In this document: positions 43,462-49,562 of the stretch, one piece after another | Layout of the letters: every line of letters begins with the position of its first letter | Numbering within the stretch: the stretch's first letter is position 1 | DNA from: Thioalkalivibrio sp. K90mix | Lineage (GTDB): Bacteria; Pseudomonadota; Gammaproteobacteria; Ectothiorhodospirales; Ectothiorhodospiraceae | Direction of reading: 5' to 3' | Length of the DNA stretch: 64,000 nucleotides | Assembly: GCF_000025545.1 (NCBI RefSeq) | Contig: NC_013889.1 | Coordinates: 1,481,501 to 1,545,500, forward strand | Notes under the pieces: generated by a model | Databases searched by the model: none | What the model saw: the letters and a program-made list of their open reading frames with translations, nothing else | What the model was told of the DNA's origin: nothing | Program-made: the position numbers and the translations under genes

Positions 43462-44487
43462 TCAACGACAGTCGGCTGGAGCCAGAAAGATCCGGGCCGA
43501 CATGCCCACACCCTTGATGCTGCGACGGCCAAGCTGTTTCACCACCTCGTGAAAACGCTCCACGTGGCCCAGGGCCGCAACATGGTGCGACCTCTGCCCT
43601 CTTCCGACATGCCCCAGGAAATGCGCTGGATCGATTCGCAGGCGTTCCAGGATCGGCGGAATGGATTCCGGGATGGCCCCGCGCTTGTCCTCGCGGATCG
43701 CGCGCCCGGTCCAGTCCACCAGCTCCAGGTAGTCCTCCGTGGTAAAGGCCACCGCATTCGCATGCGGATCGTCCCCTTCCCGGCCCAATACAGTCAGGCG
43801 AGGCTCGTCGCCCTCACACGCCGAGCCTTCGTGCTCCTGATCCTCCCGGGCCAGCGCCCGGATACGCTGCTGGATCGAGGTGAAATCGGACGTCTCGGGC
43901 GTATCCGCCATCCCGGCGCGTACCGGGTTCAGATCCACGTAGCTCATGCAGGTCAGCACCGCCGCGTCGTCGAGCAGCGCCTGGCTCTTGTAGCGGCCTT
44001 CCCAGAAGCGGCCCTTGCAGCCATCCTCCGCATTGGCGCGGCGCGCCAGGTGTTCGTTCAGGCTGCGCATGAACCAGGACAGGTCCTGCAGCCGATCCCG
44101 CCACTCGGCAATCTGCGCTTGCGCCCGCTCGCGCTCTGCCACCGTCTTGGCTTGCCCCGCCCGATAGCGGGCGACCAGCACCGGCAACGAGAACAGCCGC
44201 TCCCAGCGCTCCATCACCTCGCCTTCGCTCCATGCCGCCGCCCGGTCCGAATCCAGCCGCACCACCAGGTGATAGTGGTTCGACATCACCGCGTACGCGC
44301 ACACGTCCACCGCGAACACGCCCTGCAGATCGCGCAGGCGTTCCAGCACCCAGCCGCGCCGGTGCTCGTAGTTCGTGCCCGAATAGGAATCCTCGCCGCA
44401 CAGGAACGCGCGGCGAACACAGCGACAAATGCAGTGGTAATACGGCGTCGTCTCGACCGAGACGAGCTCCTTCCTGGCTCGCGTCAT
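43462..44487 (-). CDS. REP-associated tyrosine transposase (Y1/IS200-like, RAYT)
   Basis: 341 residues from ATG 44487 (MTRARKELVSVETTPYYHCI), with GGGAGG upstream; the longer frame lies in repeat DNA. The HUH metal motif is SNHYHLVVRLD and a single catalytic Tyr is expected in the helix near GRFWEGRYKSQALLD. These enzymes nick single-stranded REP hairpins and spread them through the genome without carrying classic IS ends. Four copies of a REP-like repeat surround the gene and the neighbouring island (44548, 44648, 44881, 47295), fitting that role. A C-terminal extension of about 130 residues is typical of one RAYT subgroup. Confidence 0.93.
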   Translation of the reverse strand: MTRARKELVSVETTPYYHCICRCVRRAFLCGEDSYSGTNYEHRRGWVLERLRDLQGVFAVDVCAYAVMSNHYHLVVRLDSDRAAAWSEGEVMERWERLFSLPVLVARYRAGQAKTVAERERAQAQIAEWRDRLQDLSWFMRSLNEHLARRANAEDGCKGRFWEGRYKSQALLDDAAVLTCMSYVDLNPVRAGMADTPETSDFTSIQQRIRALAREDQEHEGSACEGDEPRLTVLGREGDDPHANAVAFTTEDYLELVDWTGRAIREDKRGAIPESIPPILERLRIDPAHFLGHVGRGQRSHHVAALGHVERFHEVVKQLGRRSIKGVGMSARIFLAPADCR

Positions 44488-44492
44488 CTCCG

Positions 44493-44680
44493 GACCCTCC
44501 CTGGTCCATGCACTCCCCTGAAACCTAGCCCGGCCGTCCAATACCGTCAAGAAATCATGGGTGTCCTCTTCTTGCGCGTCCTCTTTTTCACCGCTCTCCC
44601 TGGTCCATGCACTCCCCCTGAAACCTAGTCCGACCCGCCCAGACCATCAAGAATCATGGGTGTACTCTTCTTTCCGCCGG
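44493..44680. repeat. two tandem REP-like repeat units beside the RAYT gene
   Basis: Unit A (44493-44577) and unit B (44594-44680) share CTCCCTGGTCCATGCACTCC, then GAAACCTAG, and end in a 27-bp hairpin motif. In A the motif is CAAGAA-ATCATGGGTGTCCTC-TTCTTG, with 6-bp arms. B has one base missing and changed arms. Unit A overlaps the leader of the RAYT gene. Confidence 0.8.
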
Positions 44681-44762
44681 TTTTTATGTAGGTTACCGAG
44701 GTCCGACCGCTTTATTGGTAGGTCCAAGGGCAAAAGGCAAGGTCTGACCCAACGATTCCAGC

Positions 44763-44880
44763 TTAGTCGCGGTCGTTCATGTCGCCGTACATCACCCAGT
44801 TTCGCAGTCGACGCTCTTCTTTCTTCTTCTTTTGTTCGCGGGAGTCCGAAGTTCCCGTTAGGGTGGCGATCGCCCCGAAT
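44763..44880 (-). pseudogene. C-terminal gene remnant
   Basis: On the minus strand a frame without a start codon reads LTGTSDSREQ, a Lys/Glu-rich stretch, then RRLRNWVMYGDMNDRD-stop. The ending looks like a genuine protein C-terminus. Its upstream part is cut off where a REP-like repeat begins at 44881. The parent family is unknown. Confidence 0.3.
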
Positions 44881-44907
44881 CAAGAATCATGGGTGTCCTC
44901 TTCTTCT
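44881..44907. repeat. REP-like hairpin repeat, third copy
   Basis: Same core as the tandem units (CAAGAATCATGGGTGTCCTC followed by TTCTTC). It sits 55 bp beyond the stop of the disrupted nuclease gene. A second shared motif, ATAGGTCCGACC, lies at 44947-44958 and in similar form at 44700. Confidence 0.8.
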
Positions 44908-45334
44908 CTAAATCTAAACTCTTTAGCAAGCGAATCATACGGTTACATAGGTCCGACCCCGTTATTCGCCTCTACGATACAGCTCGACGTTCACCGGAAT
45001 CGAGGATGCCTCAACTTCTTCGCCATCCTCACATACATCTATTCGGACTATCTGCTTGGGAAGACCCTTATTCTCTCGCCACCCTGCCGCTACCGCCAAT
45101 GCATCATTTCCATACTCAAGATCCAAACCACATAGATATCGCGTCATGAGCTGCGTAGTAAACGGAAGTGCCTGATTGTACAACCGAACGTCCTTATAGG
45201 AATTCGCCAAAGCGGCATTTATCGGGGTACACAATACCTTCGCGACGGGCGCGAACCCCGTGCGCCCTTTCAAAACTCGGCGATCATTGATGCCCCACGG
45301 ATCAAACCCTTCTTGACTAACAAAGCGAGTCGTG

Positions 45335-46748
45335 GAGTTATGGTCAAGTCTGGTGTATGAGCGATGGCGGGTTCAGGCGGCGCTCCGGTCGGTGATGGAG
45401 GATGCCTCGTCGTTGGTCGGTTCGGTCTGCTCGATGCCGTCGATGAACTTGACCCCGCGCTCGAGCTTGTCGAGCCATTCGTAACCCCGGAGCCGACGCC
45501 AGCGCTTCTGCGTGCTCTGACCGAGCTTGAACGTCAGGCTCAAGACGGTGTTGCGGGTCACGCAGCCCCGGGTCTTGTCGGTGCGCAGCCGCACGGTGGC
45601 GAAGGTCGATTCGATCGGATTGGTGGTCCGGATCGACTGCCAGTGCGCGGCTGGGAAGTCGTAGAACGCGAGCAGGTCTTCCCGGTCCTTGGCCAGCGTC
45701 TCGGCGGCTTTCGGGTACTTGTCGCCGTAGGCGGTCAGGAAGGCGTCGAAGGCCTGTTCGGCGTCGGCGCGGGTCTCGGCCATCCAGATCGCCTGCAAGG
45801 CGGACTTGGCCTTGGGCTGACTGCGCTTGGGCAGCCGGTTCAGCACATTGGCGGTCTTGTGGACCCAGCAGCGCTGGCGGCGGGTGTCCGGGTAGACCCG
45901 GGCCAGGGCCTTCCAGAAGCCCAGCGCGCCATCGCCGATGGCGAGCTTCGGGCCGTTCGCGAGGCCCTGATGATCCCGCAGGCGCACCAGCAGTTCGTAC
46001 CAGCTCTGCTCGGACTCGCGCATCCCGTCGTCGAGGGCAACAAACTCCTTGGTCCCGTCGGGCAGGACCCCGATGATGACCAGCACACAGGCGCGTTCGT
46101 CGTCCTCCCCGCGCAGGTTGAAGTGGATACCGTCCGCCCACCAGTAGCTGTAGCGGTAGGCGCGGAGATCACGCTCGCGCCATTCGGCGTGCTCGGTCAG
46201 CCACTGCTGCTTGAGGCGGCCCAGTGTCGAGGCCGACAGCCCCTGGGCCTGCTCGCCCAGCAGCGCGCTCAGCGCCTCCTGGAAGTCGCCCGAGGACACC
46301 CCCTTGAGATAGAGCCAGGGCAGCAGCTCCTCGACCGAGCGCGCCCGGCGCAGATACGGGGGCAGCAGGCTCGACGTGAAGTGCCGGCCACCGCCGGACC
46401 GATCCCGGGTCTTCGGCACCTGCACCGGTACATCGCCGATGCCGGTCTGAACCCGGCGCTGGGGCTGATAGCCATTGCGTACGACCGCCCGGCGACCGTC
46501 CGGCATGCGATCCTCCGCGTAGGTCTCCATGAACGTCCGCAACTCTGCCTCCACCGCTTGCTGGATCAGATCCCGCGCCCCGCGGCGCAGCAGATCGGTC
46601 AACGGGTCCTCTGGTCCGTTCGGGTTCTCTGTCGTATCGTGAGCCATGTTGGCGTATCTCCTCTGGCTGGCTGGTTGGTCGCACTTCCATTCCAGCCGGA
46701 TACGCCGCCTTCCTCAATCCCCCCGTACACCACTTTTGACAGTAACTC
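45335..46748 (-). mobile_element. IS256-family insertion sequence, copy 2
   Basis: Apparently identical to copy 1 (constant offset of 44492 bp over all 1414 bp compared by eye). Flanked by a perfect 9-bp duplication CGAGTCGTG at 45326-45334 and 46749-46757. Same orientation as copy 1, so recombination between them could delete or duplicate the 44.5 kb in between. Confidence 0.96.
45373..46647 (-). CDS. IS256-family transposase (copy 2)
   Basis: Encodes the same 424-residue protein as the copy at 881-2155, with all DDE residues present. Apparent identity of two copies 44 kb apart indicates very recent movement or gene conversion. Transcription runs in the same direction as the gene it interrupts. 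Confidence 0.96.
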   Translation of the reverse strand: MAHDTTENPNGPEDPLTDLLRRGARDLIQQAVEAELRTFMETYAEDRMPDGRRAVVRNGYQPQRRVQTGIGDVPVQVPKTRDRSGGGRHFTSSLLPPYLRRARSVEELLPWLYLKGVSSGDFQEALSALLGEQAQGLSASTLGRLKQQWLTEHAEWRERDLRAYRYSYWWADGIHFNLRGEDDERACVLVIIGVLPDGTKEFVALDDGMRESEQSWYELLVRLRDHQGLANGPKLAIGDGALGFWKALARVYPDTRRQRCWVHKTANVLNRLPKRSQPKAKSALQAIWMAETRADAEQAFDAFLTAYGDKYPKAAETLAKDREDLLAFYDFPAAHWQSIRTTNPIESTFATVRLRTDKTRGCVTRNTVLSLTFKLGQSTQKRWRRLRGYEWLDKLERGVKFIDGIEQTEPTNDEASSITDRSAA

Positions 46749-47294
46749 CGAGTCGTGAAGTCGTAGTCATAAAGCACGTAGAATGCTCGAGGCGCAACCT
46801 TAAGTATACGACGCGCCTGCTGAACTCTAATTTCTGGATATCTAAGCCCGTTCAGCGAACGGCGCTTAGCTTCCACAAAGGCTGCTCCGAGAATTGGTTT
46901 CTGCCCTTTTCGAACAATATTTACCAAAAACACAATATCGCCAAAATTCTTCTCGTACCGCCCATCCAGCTTGTAAGTCTCAAACTCTACGGACACAGCC
47001 TCCCGTCCATGAACCAATTTTCGACCGCGAACAGCGGACCGGATCCCTCCCAACATGGCGTGCGTAATGTGGTTCTCTTCCCACGCATAGGGATAACACT
47101 CAGCGATCCCAGAGTTGATGGCACTTTCGATTTCTATTGCTAAATGGCTCCATGCACTCATCATTCTCTCCATAAAGAAACCGCATCCACCCTTATTGGA
47201 CCCAAACCCTAAGACTGAGACTGCGAACCCCCAACAGTTGTCCGAGAACCCAGATCGCCTTCCCCTCCGAGCGCCTTGGCCATTCCAACTTACC

Positions 47295-47321
47295 CAAGAA
47301 ATCATGGGCGTCCTGTTCTTG
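47295..47321. repeat. REP-like hairpin repeat, fourth copy
   Basis: CAAGAA-ATCATGGGCGTCCTG-TTCTTG, the same 27-bp motif as at 44548 with two substitutions. It lies between the two-membrane-span gene and the nuclease gene. Together with the copy at 44881 it brackets the nuclease gene. Confidence 0.8.
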
Positions 47322-47355: not shown

Positions 47356-48069
47356 CTAAAGATATCGCCTTTCCATGATCTCGGGGACCTCTCTCGAATA
47401 GCAGAACTCTCGATTCACGCAGACAACCAACGACAAGACTTGGCTTTCTACCTCATAGAACTCGTTACGCGGCGCACGAGACATCCTTACCCCAAGCTCT
47501 TCCAGAACCCCAATCAGTCTACTCTGATGCTCTACATACCTAAATTTCTCACTCGATGTGTTCGAGGTCAGTTTATTAGATTCCAGAATCGCACGATTAA
47601 TTTCCTTGATCCGTTCCACATACCCCCTCGACAGCTTAGTAGAGCCCTCGCGAGACTCTTCAAATATGCGATTATACCACTTGAATATGTCTACTGAGCT
47701 GAGTTCGACAAGCGGCCTTTTCTCGATCTCTTGGGCCAGAAAACTCTGAAACACTGAAATATGCGATAGATGATTACTCAAAGCATTTGACTGTGCGTTG
47801 TTAATGTAACTTTGAAGCGCCACCCCTATACCACCGACCATCGCAGTCGCCACCACAATGGAGAGCATCCCTCTAATTAGGTCTACCGAGGCACTATAGA
47901 TATCAAACGCGTTTTGAACACAATGATTGGAGAAACATAGATCCTTACTAAACGCACCCGAAAACCCTTCCACAAAAAACACCGTGGCCGAGAGACCCAA
48001 TCCAACGATCAACACTGTCACAACAGCAAAAGACAGAACTTTAAAAAAAAACCAATTGTTACGAGTCAT
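47356..48069 (-). CDS. two-transmembrane protein, candidate retron effector
   Basis: 237 residues. Helix 1 at about 10-32 (FAVVTVLIVGLGLSATVFFV), a short outside loop with two Cys (CFSNHC, residues 45 and 50), helix 2 at about 67-88 (GMLSIVVATAMVGGIGVALQ). Then about 150 cytoplasmic residues with helical segments (HISVFQSFLAQEIEKRP, YVERIKEINRAILESN). Its ATG lies inside the end of the reverse-transcriptase gene (11-bp overlap, TATGACTCGTAA), so translation is coupled. Retron Ec48 carries an RT with a 2TM toxin that permeabilises the inner membrane after phage sensing; gene order and topology here agree. Sequence homology to that protein was not tested. Confidence 0.8.
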   Translation of the reverse strand: MTRNNWFFFKVLSFAVVTVLIVGLGLSATVFFVEGFSGAFSKDLCFSNHCVQNAFDIYSASVDLIRGMLSIVVATAMVGGIGVALQSYINNAQSNALSNHLSHISVFQSFLAQEIEKRPLVELSSVDIFKWYNRIFEESREGSTKLSRGYVERIKEINRAILESNKLTSNTSSEKFRYVEHQSRLIGVLEELGVRMSRAPRNEFYEVESQVLSLVVCVNREFCYSREVPEIMERRYL

Positions 48070-49249
48070 AGAGCGGCTTGACCTTCTTAAGTCGTTCCCT
48101 AAACTTTTTAGCCTTCGCTATATAGATAAGTTGCAGGACATTCAAACGCTCATGCGCCCTGTGATATCGCTTCCAATACCAGAAAGTGGCTCGCTTCTCC
48201 GCATGATCCTTTTCTAAGCGACTAACCATAACCTCCAGCCGATCCAAGTCTGCCCTTGATGGCAAGGGCCGGATACTTTTTAACCGTCTCACCAAGATCG
48301 AATGCTGCTTATGCCCTACACGACTTAATTTATTTACGCGCCCCATACACCGATTGTAATCGCGTCGGTACGCGTGACTTACACGGTAGTTCGGTTCCCG
48401 AGCAAGCTGCTCCATACTCTGAACCGACGCTCGAATGCGTTTTACCTCTCCGGCAGGCAGACGGGGCTCCTTGAAACCAACACGGAGCCCATGAACCGTT
48501 AGGGGCTCGGTAGATAACCGCTGGACAATAGTCTTGTCTTCGTTAATAGGCAGGTCTTTTTCGATAAGCATATCCGTGATTATCTTCTTGGCATAGCTGA
48601 AATTATAATTAGCTACGTGAGAAGAGACGGTAATGTCGTCGACCAACCTCGTATAGACAAGTCCTTTATTCTCTAGACGCCTAACGACGCTCCCCTCTTT
48701 ATCATGCAAACAGAGAGAAGCCAGATAACTCGAGGTGAGGCCGCCCTGGGGAAGAGAGCCCCTGAGAGTACAAAGATCCGTGAGAATCTTGGACACGTCT
48801 TCAGGAAAGCTCAACAAGTTCAGAAAGACCTTATAGACGTGGTCTTGATGAACATTGCCAAAGAAATCGGAGATATCCATCTTTAGGATACTCTTCGACT
48901 GGCAATGCTTGCTTGCACAGCTCACGTAGTCAGTAGTGACTAGCTCGCCGTCGTCATCGACATAGTTTGGTATGCAGCCAAAAATATGCCGCGGCCAACG
49001 GATAAAATCGGGGTTAGCGAAGAACCTCTTGTTCAATCGCCGTTGGATTTTTCGAATTAAGTAATGAGGATTGTTTACGATGCGATCAGAGCCATTTAAC
49101 TTGGGCTGCCGCATTGTCGTATAGCGCTCATCGCCCCGCATAGAACGGGCCGATTCTAGTTCATGCCAAGAGATATCGAGTGCTTGGCACAGATTATGTT
49201 CGCTTGATACCGATTCTGAAGAAAGTTTTGAAGGGGAGTACAATATCAA
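48059..49249 (-). CDS. retron-type reverse transcriptase
   Basis: 396 residues from TTG 49249 (no ATG is available after the in-frame stop at 49267-49265). RT blocks in order: RIVNNPHYLIRKIQRRLNK, KMDISDFFGNV (first catalytic Asp 125), GSLPQGGLTSSYLASL, and the catalytic YTRLVDDITVS, where the usual YADD is LVDD (202-205). The retron NAxxH position reads CASKH (111-115) and the retron VTG motif reads VHG (252-254), so both hallmarks are present but substituted. The C-terminal 130 residues are basic and helical. The gene is AT-rich against a high-GC background, has a structured leader upstream and an overlapping 2TM gene downstream. Best reading: a divergent defence retron. An Abi- or UG-type defence RT is the alternative. 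Confidence 0.88.
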   Translation of the reverse strand: MILYSPSKLSSESVSSEHNLCQALDISWHELESARSMRGDERYTTMRQPKLNGSDRIVNNPHYLIRKIQRRLNKRFFANPDFIRWPRHIFGCIPNYVDDDGELVTTDYVSCASKHCQSKSILKMDISDFFGNVHQDHVYKVFLNLLSFPEDVSKILTDLCTLRGSLPQGGLTSSYLASLCLHDKEGSVVRRLENKGLVYTRLVDDITVSSHVANYNFSYAKKIITDMLIEKDLPINEDKTIVQRLSTEPLTVHGLRVGFKEPRLPAGEVKRIRASVQSMEQLAREPNYRVSHAYRRDYNRCMGRVNKLSRVGHKQHSILVRRLKSIRPLPSRADLDRLEVMVSRLEKDHAEKRATFWYWKRYHRAHERLNVLQLIYIAKAKKFRERLKKVKPLYDS

Positions 49250-49527
49250 AACGCTGTGTATCGATTAAATATAGGCCCGACCAACCCATACAATAGGGTA
49301 CAGTGCTATGTGTCACCTTCGCCGAACTTCAACGCCGACTACTACCACACACCACATGGTCGGACCTATTGTCAATCTCTCCTCCGGGTCGGAGGAGAGG
49401 AGGGTACGAACTTCGCCCCTCTAGCCCTCTATAGCTCCGAGGACGCCCACTAGGTTGTTCAGATTAGCGGGCCAGATATCGACGTTGTTACTGCTCGGCT
49501 GCGGTGAAGAGGCGATGCGCCCCTGCG
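49250..49527 (-). ncRNA. candidate retron ncRNA (msr-msd) leader
   Basis: About 278 nt of non-coding RNA would be made between the promoter and the RT start. It holds three structured blocks. (1) GGGGCG-CAT-CGCCTC near the 5' end. (2) A perfect 10-bp hairpin at 49377-49399 with a 3-nt loop (plus strand CTCTCCTCCG-GGT-CGGAGGAGAG). (3) A 13-bp stem pairing 49357-49369 with 49271-49283 (ATAGGTCCGACCA with TGGTCGGGCCTAT, one G-U), inside which GTGGTGTGTG can pair with CACATAGCAC. Block 3 could be the msd. A possible a1/a2 pairing is GATATCTGGCCCG with CGGGCCTATATT, but it competes with block 3. Because ATAGGTCCGACC also occurs near the RAYT gene, block 3 might instead be a pair of inverted mobile repeats. 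Confidence 0.5.
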
Positions 49528-49533
49528 ATTTAG

Positions 49534-49562
49534 AAAGTAGACGCTGAGTGTGGTAATGTCAA
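49534..49562 (-). promoter_or_regulatory. sigma-70 promoter of the retron-like cassette
   Basis: Minus strand TTGACA (49562-49557), a 17-bp spacer, then TACTTT (49539-49534). The -35 is a perfect match and the spacing optimal. Predicted start near 49527, about 278 nt before the RT start codon. Confidence 0.7.

Follow-up and report, generated by a model that had tools for sequence, protein, structure and literature searches.

Introduction

The retron Ec48 (Retron-Eco6) is the described system to which the locus reported here is compared. Excerpts of two articles connect it with suicide upon infection by a phage, which must inhibit RecBCD for this (PMC10162544), and with loss of membrane integrity (PMC12405507). 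Its RT-DNA comprises 48 bases, or three fewer in the excerpted text of PMC8989520. Its reverse transcriptase (RT) departs from the usual motifs in region X and in VTG according to an excerpt of PMC6868368, in which LVDD appears in the title of a reference.

The locus analyzed here belongs to Thioalkalivibrio sp. K90mix and lies in a window of 64,000 nucleotides, the whole stretch of DNA that was studied (NC_013889.1, positions 1,481,501 to 1,545,500). Coordinates refer to this window unless a locus of another genome is named. In a search of a limited body of literature, no paper mentioned both a retron and Thioalkalivibrio.

A Type IV Retron Locus in Thioalkalivibrio

The order of elements on the minus strand is ncRNA, RT and membrane effector. 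The RT gene (48059..49249) has a TTG start and encodes 396 aa with an LVDD active site. It was matched by RVT_1 and by the PADLOC model RT_IV at 545.1 bits, the runner-up being RT_V with 232 bits. In its translation, CASKH stands in place of the usual NAXXH and VHG in place of the usual VTG, which are departures of the same sort as those described for the Ec48 RT. The effector gene (47356..48069, minus strand, 237 aa) shares 11 nt with the RT gene, and its product scored 254.2 bits with the 2TM_IV profile and 222.2 bits with the NCBI model for the Ec48 effector membrane protein (NF038235), well above the cut-off of 65. Because of the RT_IV score, the match to the Ec48 effector model and the Ec48-like departures of the RT, the locus is, by the RT family, RT motifs and effector family of its predicted proteins, a type IV (Ec48-like) retron.

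The leader directly ahead of the RT gene (49250-49527, minus strand) is very probably the msr-msd RNA of this type IV (Ec48-like) retron, a judgement that includes an Ec48-style way of working. The same locus is carried by Thioalkalivibrio sp. ALE31, with an RT 99% identical and an identical leader. A search of 369 genomes of the class with the 2TM_IV profile gave the window as the sole match, the comparison of RT alignment A1 with viral contigs yielded 63 stretches with no relative among them, and the leader had no match in Rfam up to an E-value of 5.

Downstream, the gene next to the retron is split by an IS256-family element of about 1.4 kb (45339-46748); the ALE31 version of this gene (L003, 4921-5865) is intact, with 314 aa and no Pfam or PADLOC match. 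Additionally, another retron RT, with RT_V as its best match, was observed in a genome of the same genus (L012, 1501-2496, minus strand), and the type IV RNA models gave no match at that locus.

Leaders of Related Retrons and Predicted Fold

RT_IV-like relatives with leaders were found in Moritella, Psychromonas and Pseudoalteromonas, and further leaders came from Escherichia phage pro147, E. coli, viral contigs and an Acinetobacter plasmid. Such relatives were also present in sets of genomes from one order (6 of 394), one genus (6 of 108) and one family (2 of 295), and a PADLOC check of three loci (L004, L005, and L006) detected RT_IV and 2TM_IV in each. Five near copies of the pro147 leader L017 were removed (L031, L033, L035, L036, and L037), L032 and L050 were not extracted and the ALE31 leader was omitted as identical, so that 24 leaders remained.

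Some peculiarities were observed among these loci. The Moritella RT frame (L016, 1501-2712) has one TAA, which denotes either a decayed gene or a sequencing error. In the Acinetobacter plasmid (L022, 2950-5918), an RT_IV-like RT is apparently cut short next to an IS30 element beside blaNDM-1, and a weak effector match lies about 12 kb from the RT. The effector of phage pro147 (L017, 3658-4365) is annotated as an AlkB repair protein, yet it passes the Ec48 effector model.

A predicted RNA composed of a 5′ domain starting at P1 and a 3′ three-way junction of P5, P6 and P7 is strongly supported by the folds and the alignments; its elements all lie on the minus strand. P1 (49508..49524), the first hairpin, is a stem with a 3-nt loop that is common to the 18 aligned leaders and has two-sided changes in six of its seven pairs. 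In the remaining msr-like part of the 5′ domain (49373..49507), delimited by folds and alignment, RNAalifold found no consensus pairs. The junction (49268..49372) is framed by the two arms of P5, the 5′ arm at 49357..49369, which includes ATAGGTCCGACC, and the 3′ arm at 49271..49283. Between them lie the long inner hairpin P6 (49303..49355) and the small hairpin P7 (49284..49299), which reads ACCC-UAUUGUAU-GGGU, has a conserved loop and holds CCTATTGT. Folds and covariation point to all three stems, and RNAalifold also returned P6.

P5 is the 13-bp stem on which an earlier note on this DNA had centered, and it proved to be real. It has 13 pairs, one of them a G-U pair that results from the single mismatch between ATAGGTCCGACC (49358-49369, minus strand) and the other stem arm, ATAGGCCCGACC (49271-49282, plus strand), and none of 100 dinucleotide shuffles of the leader gave an equal stem at that span. 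The whole leader folds with a z of −4.65, none of 200 shuffles folding equally well, and this minimum-energy fold pairs the 5′ domain in ways that the alignment does not support.

The best stem spanning 80–130 nt stood out from the shuffles in 16 of the 24 leaders (equalled in 5 or fewer of 100) and was within their range (more than 5 of 100) in the other eight (L006, L019, L021, L042, L043, L045, L047, and L048). When leaders were folded singly between hand-picked stem arms, L043 not being folded, an outer stem with a long hairpin and a small hairpin beside the 3′ arm was recognized by eye in 17 of 23. Other or extra small hairpins appeared in L006, L021, L022, L044, L045, and L048.

Covariation Among Related Leaders

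Alignment A3 contained 15 of the 24 leaders. Outside it were L006, L021, L022, and L045, too diverged for MAFFT, the near copies L034, L039, and L044, and also L043 and L048, in which the outer stem or P1 was not located. A further alignment of 19 leaders (A4) had its most diverged rows misaligned and was excluded from the counts.

RNAalifold gave P5, P6 and P7 unaided from the 15 leaders of A3, with two-sided changes in 15 of 17 pairs. For the 20 named pairs, 85.6% of the cells were paired (shuffled mean 64.2) and 75 cells carried two-sided changes (shuffled mean 28.0), values that none of 500 shuffles equalled, and further pair types were equalled in 7 of 500; these shuffle figures are not probabilities, because related sequences were aligned and P5 had served to delimit the segments. 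Sliding the partners by one column lowered the paired cells to 40.8 and 43.4%. By stem, 86.4% of the cells were paired in P5 and 91.1% in P7, and the letters of P5 differ between lineages with the pairing kept and many two-sided changes.

The A3 figures are lowered by the MAFFT rows of L018, L020, L040, and L047, in which no more than 4 to 8 of the 12 P5 pairs form; by eye, the rows of L018 and L040 are one column off register. The model-fitted alignment A5, which mends the register but is biased towards structure, reached 91.0% paired cells and 101 two-sided cells in 17 distinct rows, one of which is a likely chance match. The 19 matches of A5 include this likely chance match, L017 on the minus strand (E 0.86), and a weak one, L043 (E 0.11).

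Moreover, a covariance model (R2) was built from 13 leaders with the window excluded and was run on 13 sources, its E-values being rough. Within the window it matched 49268-49372 alone (56.9 bits, E 6e-13), and it also matched the identical ALE31 leader, L047 (2.3e-4) and L043 (1.1e-3). At the four loci that carry other RTs (L007, L008, L009, and L012), no match was obtained. Among its 13 sources R2 missed five RT_IV-type leaders (L006, L021, L022, L045, and L048), and the fold of the family is therefore less uniform than the core set suggests. Of the options that the earlier note had left side by side, that of a retron ncRNA is strongly supported by the gene families, the shared fold, the covariation and the match of the model built without the window; the comparison of leaders that it had advised backs one fold, P5-P6-P7.

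RNA Ends, Priming, and Activity

No consistent a1/a2 pair flanking the RNA was found when 19 leaders were compared with shuffles. Pairing of this type was equalled by at most 5% of the shuffles in three of the 19 leaders and, with wider flanks, in two (L047 and L049). In the window, the pairing of the 5′ end with the stretch that follows P5 was within the range of the shuffles (124 of 200; 46 of 300 with wider flanks). By eye, the usual priming motif AGC stands directly before P5 in 13 of 18 leaders, and not in the window.

The RT-DNA of Ec48, of about 48 bases, and the P6 of L017, of 50 nt, suggest that P6 may be the msd, and on the predicted fold this assignment is likely. It is also conceivable, if rather doubtful, that type IV RNAs do without a1/a2 at their termini and rely on the P5-P6-P7 junction to close the template domain. 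Their P7 loop (about UANNGUAU), conserved between Thioalkalivibrio and Escherichia, would on this view hold the RT or the priming G in position. In that case, the geometry of initiation would differ from that of Ec86.

A possible promoter was noted by eye ahead of the leader (TTGACA, 17 nt, TACTTT, with 6/6 and 3/6 consensus letters; 49534..49562, minus strand). It is weak and under the threshold of the promoter scan, which gave three other sites against 3.0 expected. The weakness of this promoter, the splitting of the next downstream gene by the IS256 element and the absence of AGC before P5 would all agree with a locus that is a type IV retron by descent and is now inactive in this genome. 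However, the reading frames of the RT and the effector are open and full-length, the ALE31 leader is identical and P5 is fully paired, and inactivity is considered improbable.

Origin of the Outer Stem and Alternative Pairing

As the earlier note had reported, ATAGGTCCGACC is present exactly at 44947-44958 on the plus strand, 4.4 kb from the stem and beside a RAYT-like gene, and the variant that it had placed near 44700 was found as CGAGGTCCGACC at 44697-44708, that is, as AGGTCCGACC at 44699-44708. The note had consequently allowed for an msd built from such a repeat. According to this reading, the RNA would be a retron RNA whose P5 was rebuilt, in this lineage, from the repeat on the RAYT side. 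Apart from the exact match of 12 letters, it would explain that in the sister genome G020 a copy of the 12-mer also lies about 3 kb from the retron stem, and that the inner 10-mer AGGTCCGACC is unusually clustered, three of its seven genome copies lying within 5 kb here and two of these three belonging to a 26-nt direct repeat next to the RAYT-like gene.

Nevertheless, the sharing of 12-mers is at chance level: three leader 12-mers recur elsewhere in the window, in two places, and this count of three was reached or exceeded in 217 of 500 shuffled leaders (mean 2.5). The leader matches the RAYT side over 12 letters and no further, whereas the two copies on that side have the whole 26-nt unit in common. 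In the genome of 2,985,056 bases, the 12-mer has two copies versus four for its backwards control, and AGGTCCGACC has seven versus 34 for its control. The genome-wide count proposed earlier thus found the 12-mer once only besides the stem, neither absent nor dispersed. Within the genus, it occurred in 2 of 30 genomes, exactly the two with this retron and with two copies in each. The many dispersed copies of a REP/RAYT repeat were not seen in the genome counts of the 12-mer and the 10-mer, nor were kept letters, since the letters of the stem vary among leaders and the pairing stays.

A further argument against a rebuilt stem is the P5 of Moritella and Psychromonas, which is in register with that of the window over 12 pairs, six being identical, two changed on one side, four changed on both sides and none broken; the P7 letters are alike as well. 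The register and the absence of broken pairs argue for change in place under a pairing constraint and not for the insertion of a repeat. A P5 rebuilt from the RAYT side is accordingly very improbable, and the 12 letters common to both places are most likely a coincidence. From the comparison, the genome counts and the shuffles, the copy at 44947..44958 was judged not to be part of the retron RNA. A mobile-repeat origin of the stem was rejected on the genome counts, the chance-level sharing and the in-register changes of P5.

A separate 27-nt repeat, around CAAGAATCATGGGTGTCCTCTTCTT, was observed in four copies, three of them beside the RAYT-like gene (44547-44573, 44646-44672, and 44879-44905) and the fourth close to the retron end (47294-47320). 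The RAYT-like gene itself (43462-44550) is under the curated cut-offs, with 45.9 of 80 for REP_Tyr_transpos and 20.3 of 23 for Y1_Tnp, and may be diverged or decayed.

The competing fold proposed in the earlier note, ACAATAGG with CCTATTGT, does form eight perfect pairs in the window, and relatives did not support it further. For this pairing to be the functional fold, or for the RNA to switch between both folds, seems highly unlikely. Seven of its eight pairs form in L005 and L042, no more than 22 of 500 shuffles equalled its covariation score, and it had more paired cells than any slid version. In the other 12 of the 15 leaders, however, only three to six of the eight pairs form, and the pairing is complete in one of 15. 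Its 65.4% of paired cells compare with a shuffled mean of 62.7% and were equalled by 70 of 500 shuffles. Moreover, it would disrupt the well-paired P5 and P7, and CCTATTGT occurs in L004 and L005 as part of P7. This fold was discarded because of its incomplete pairing across relatives and its shuffle-level paired cells.

The last reading, in which the leader is two inverted mobile repeats that stand by chance ahead of an RT gene and make no functional RNA, has in its favor that the arms are near-identical inverted repeats resembling sequence beside the RAYT-like gene, but it is hardly credible and, on sequence comparison, already contradicted, since diverged relatives have this junction at the corresponding position, built of different letters and with compensatory changes, the model built without the window detects that junction, and the motif lacks dispersed copies in the genome and was confined, among 30 genomes of the genus, to the two with this retron.

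Discussion

The RNA of the window can be placed in a mechanism proposed by analogy with Ec48. The RT would bind the leader RNA and make a short branched msDNA from part of its 3′ domain, for which P6 is the most likely candidate. The RT-msDNA complex would then restrain the membrane effector until phage infection disturbs the complex, and the cell would then die before the phage spreads. For this locus, we infer transcription, msDNA synthesis, a priming site, the limits of the msd and phage defence. In an excerpt of PMC8989520 the Eco6 effector alone was not toxic, which gives no simple fit with a mechanism based on a restrained effector.

The question of whether the leader is a retron RNA, a pair of mobile repeats or a retron with a repeat-built msd is settled for the retron RNA. 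The fold, backed by covariation for type IV leaders of distant Gammaproteobacteria, can guide the mapping of msDNA ends and the choice of test mutations. Additionally, the locus illustrates how chance can account for 12 identical letters in a stem and in a repeat close to it.

Compared with REP/RAYT repeats, the stem of the window shares 12 letters with sequence beside a RAYT-like gene, but its motif is not dispersed, is without shared flanks and has letters that are not kept in relatives. The nearest solved RTs by sequence are Kva2 (E 9e-16) and Ec86 (E 3e-13), both distant, and no solved structure related to the effector was found up to an E-value of 0.1. Besides that of ALE31, the closest RTs are those of Moritella sp. 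PE36 and Psychromonas antarctica (L004 and L005; 51 and 50% identical). They resemble the window in the letters of the P7 loop and in the register of P5, and differ from it in the letters of P5, 7 of 12 being alike per arm, and in the stop of the Moritella RT frame.

Ec48, copies of whose type occur in Escherichia phage pro147 (L017) and E. coli SC477 (L030), the latter's effector being annotated as "retron Ec48 family", has the same order of ncRNA, RT and membrane effector. It likewise has RT_IV and 2TM_IV, LVDD, a substituted N of NAXXH, VHG, P1 and the P5-P6-P7 junction. By contrast, its stem letters and host group are others, and its msDNA has been published, whereas that of the window is predicted. 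Its RT is also well diverged, that of L017 being 45.5% identical to the Psychromonas RT, to which the RT of the window is 50% identical. The RNA of the window is an ordinary but well-supported example of the known retron type IV.
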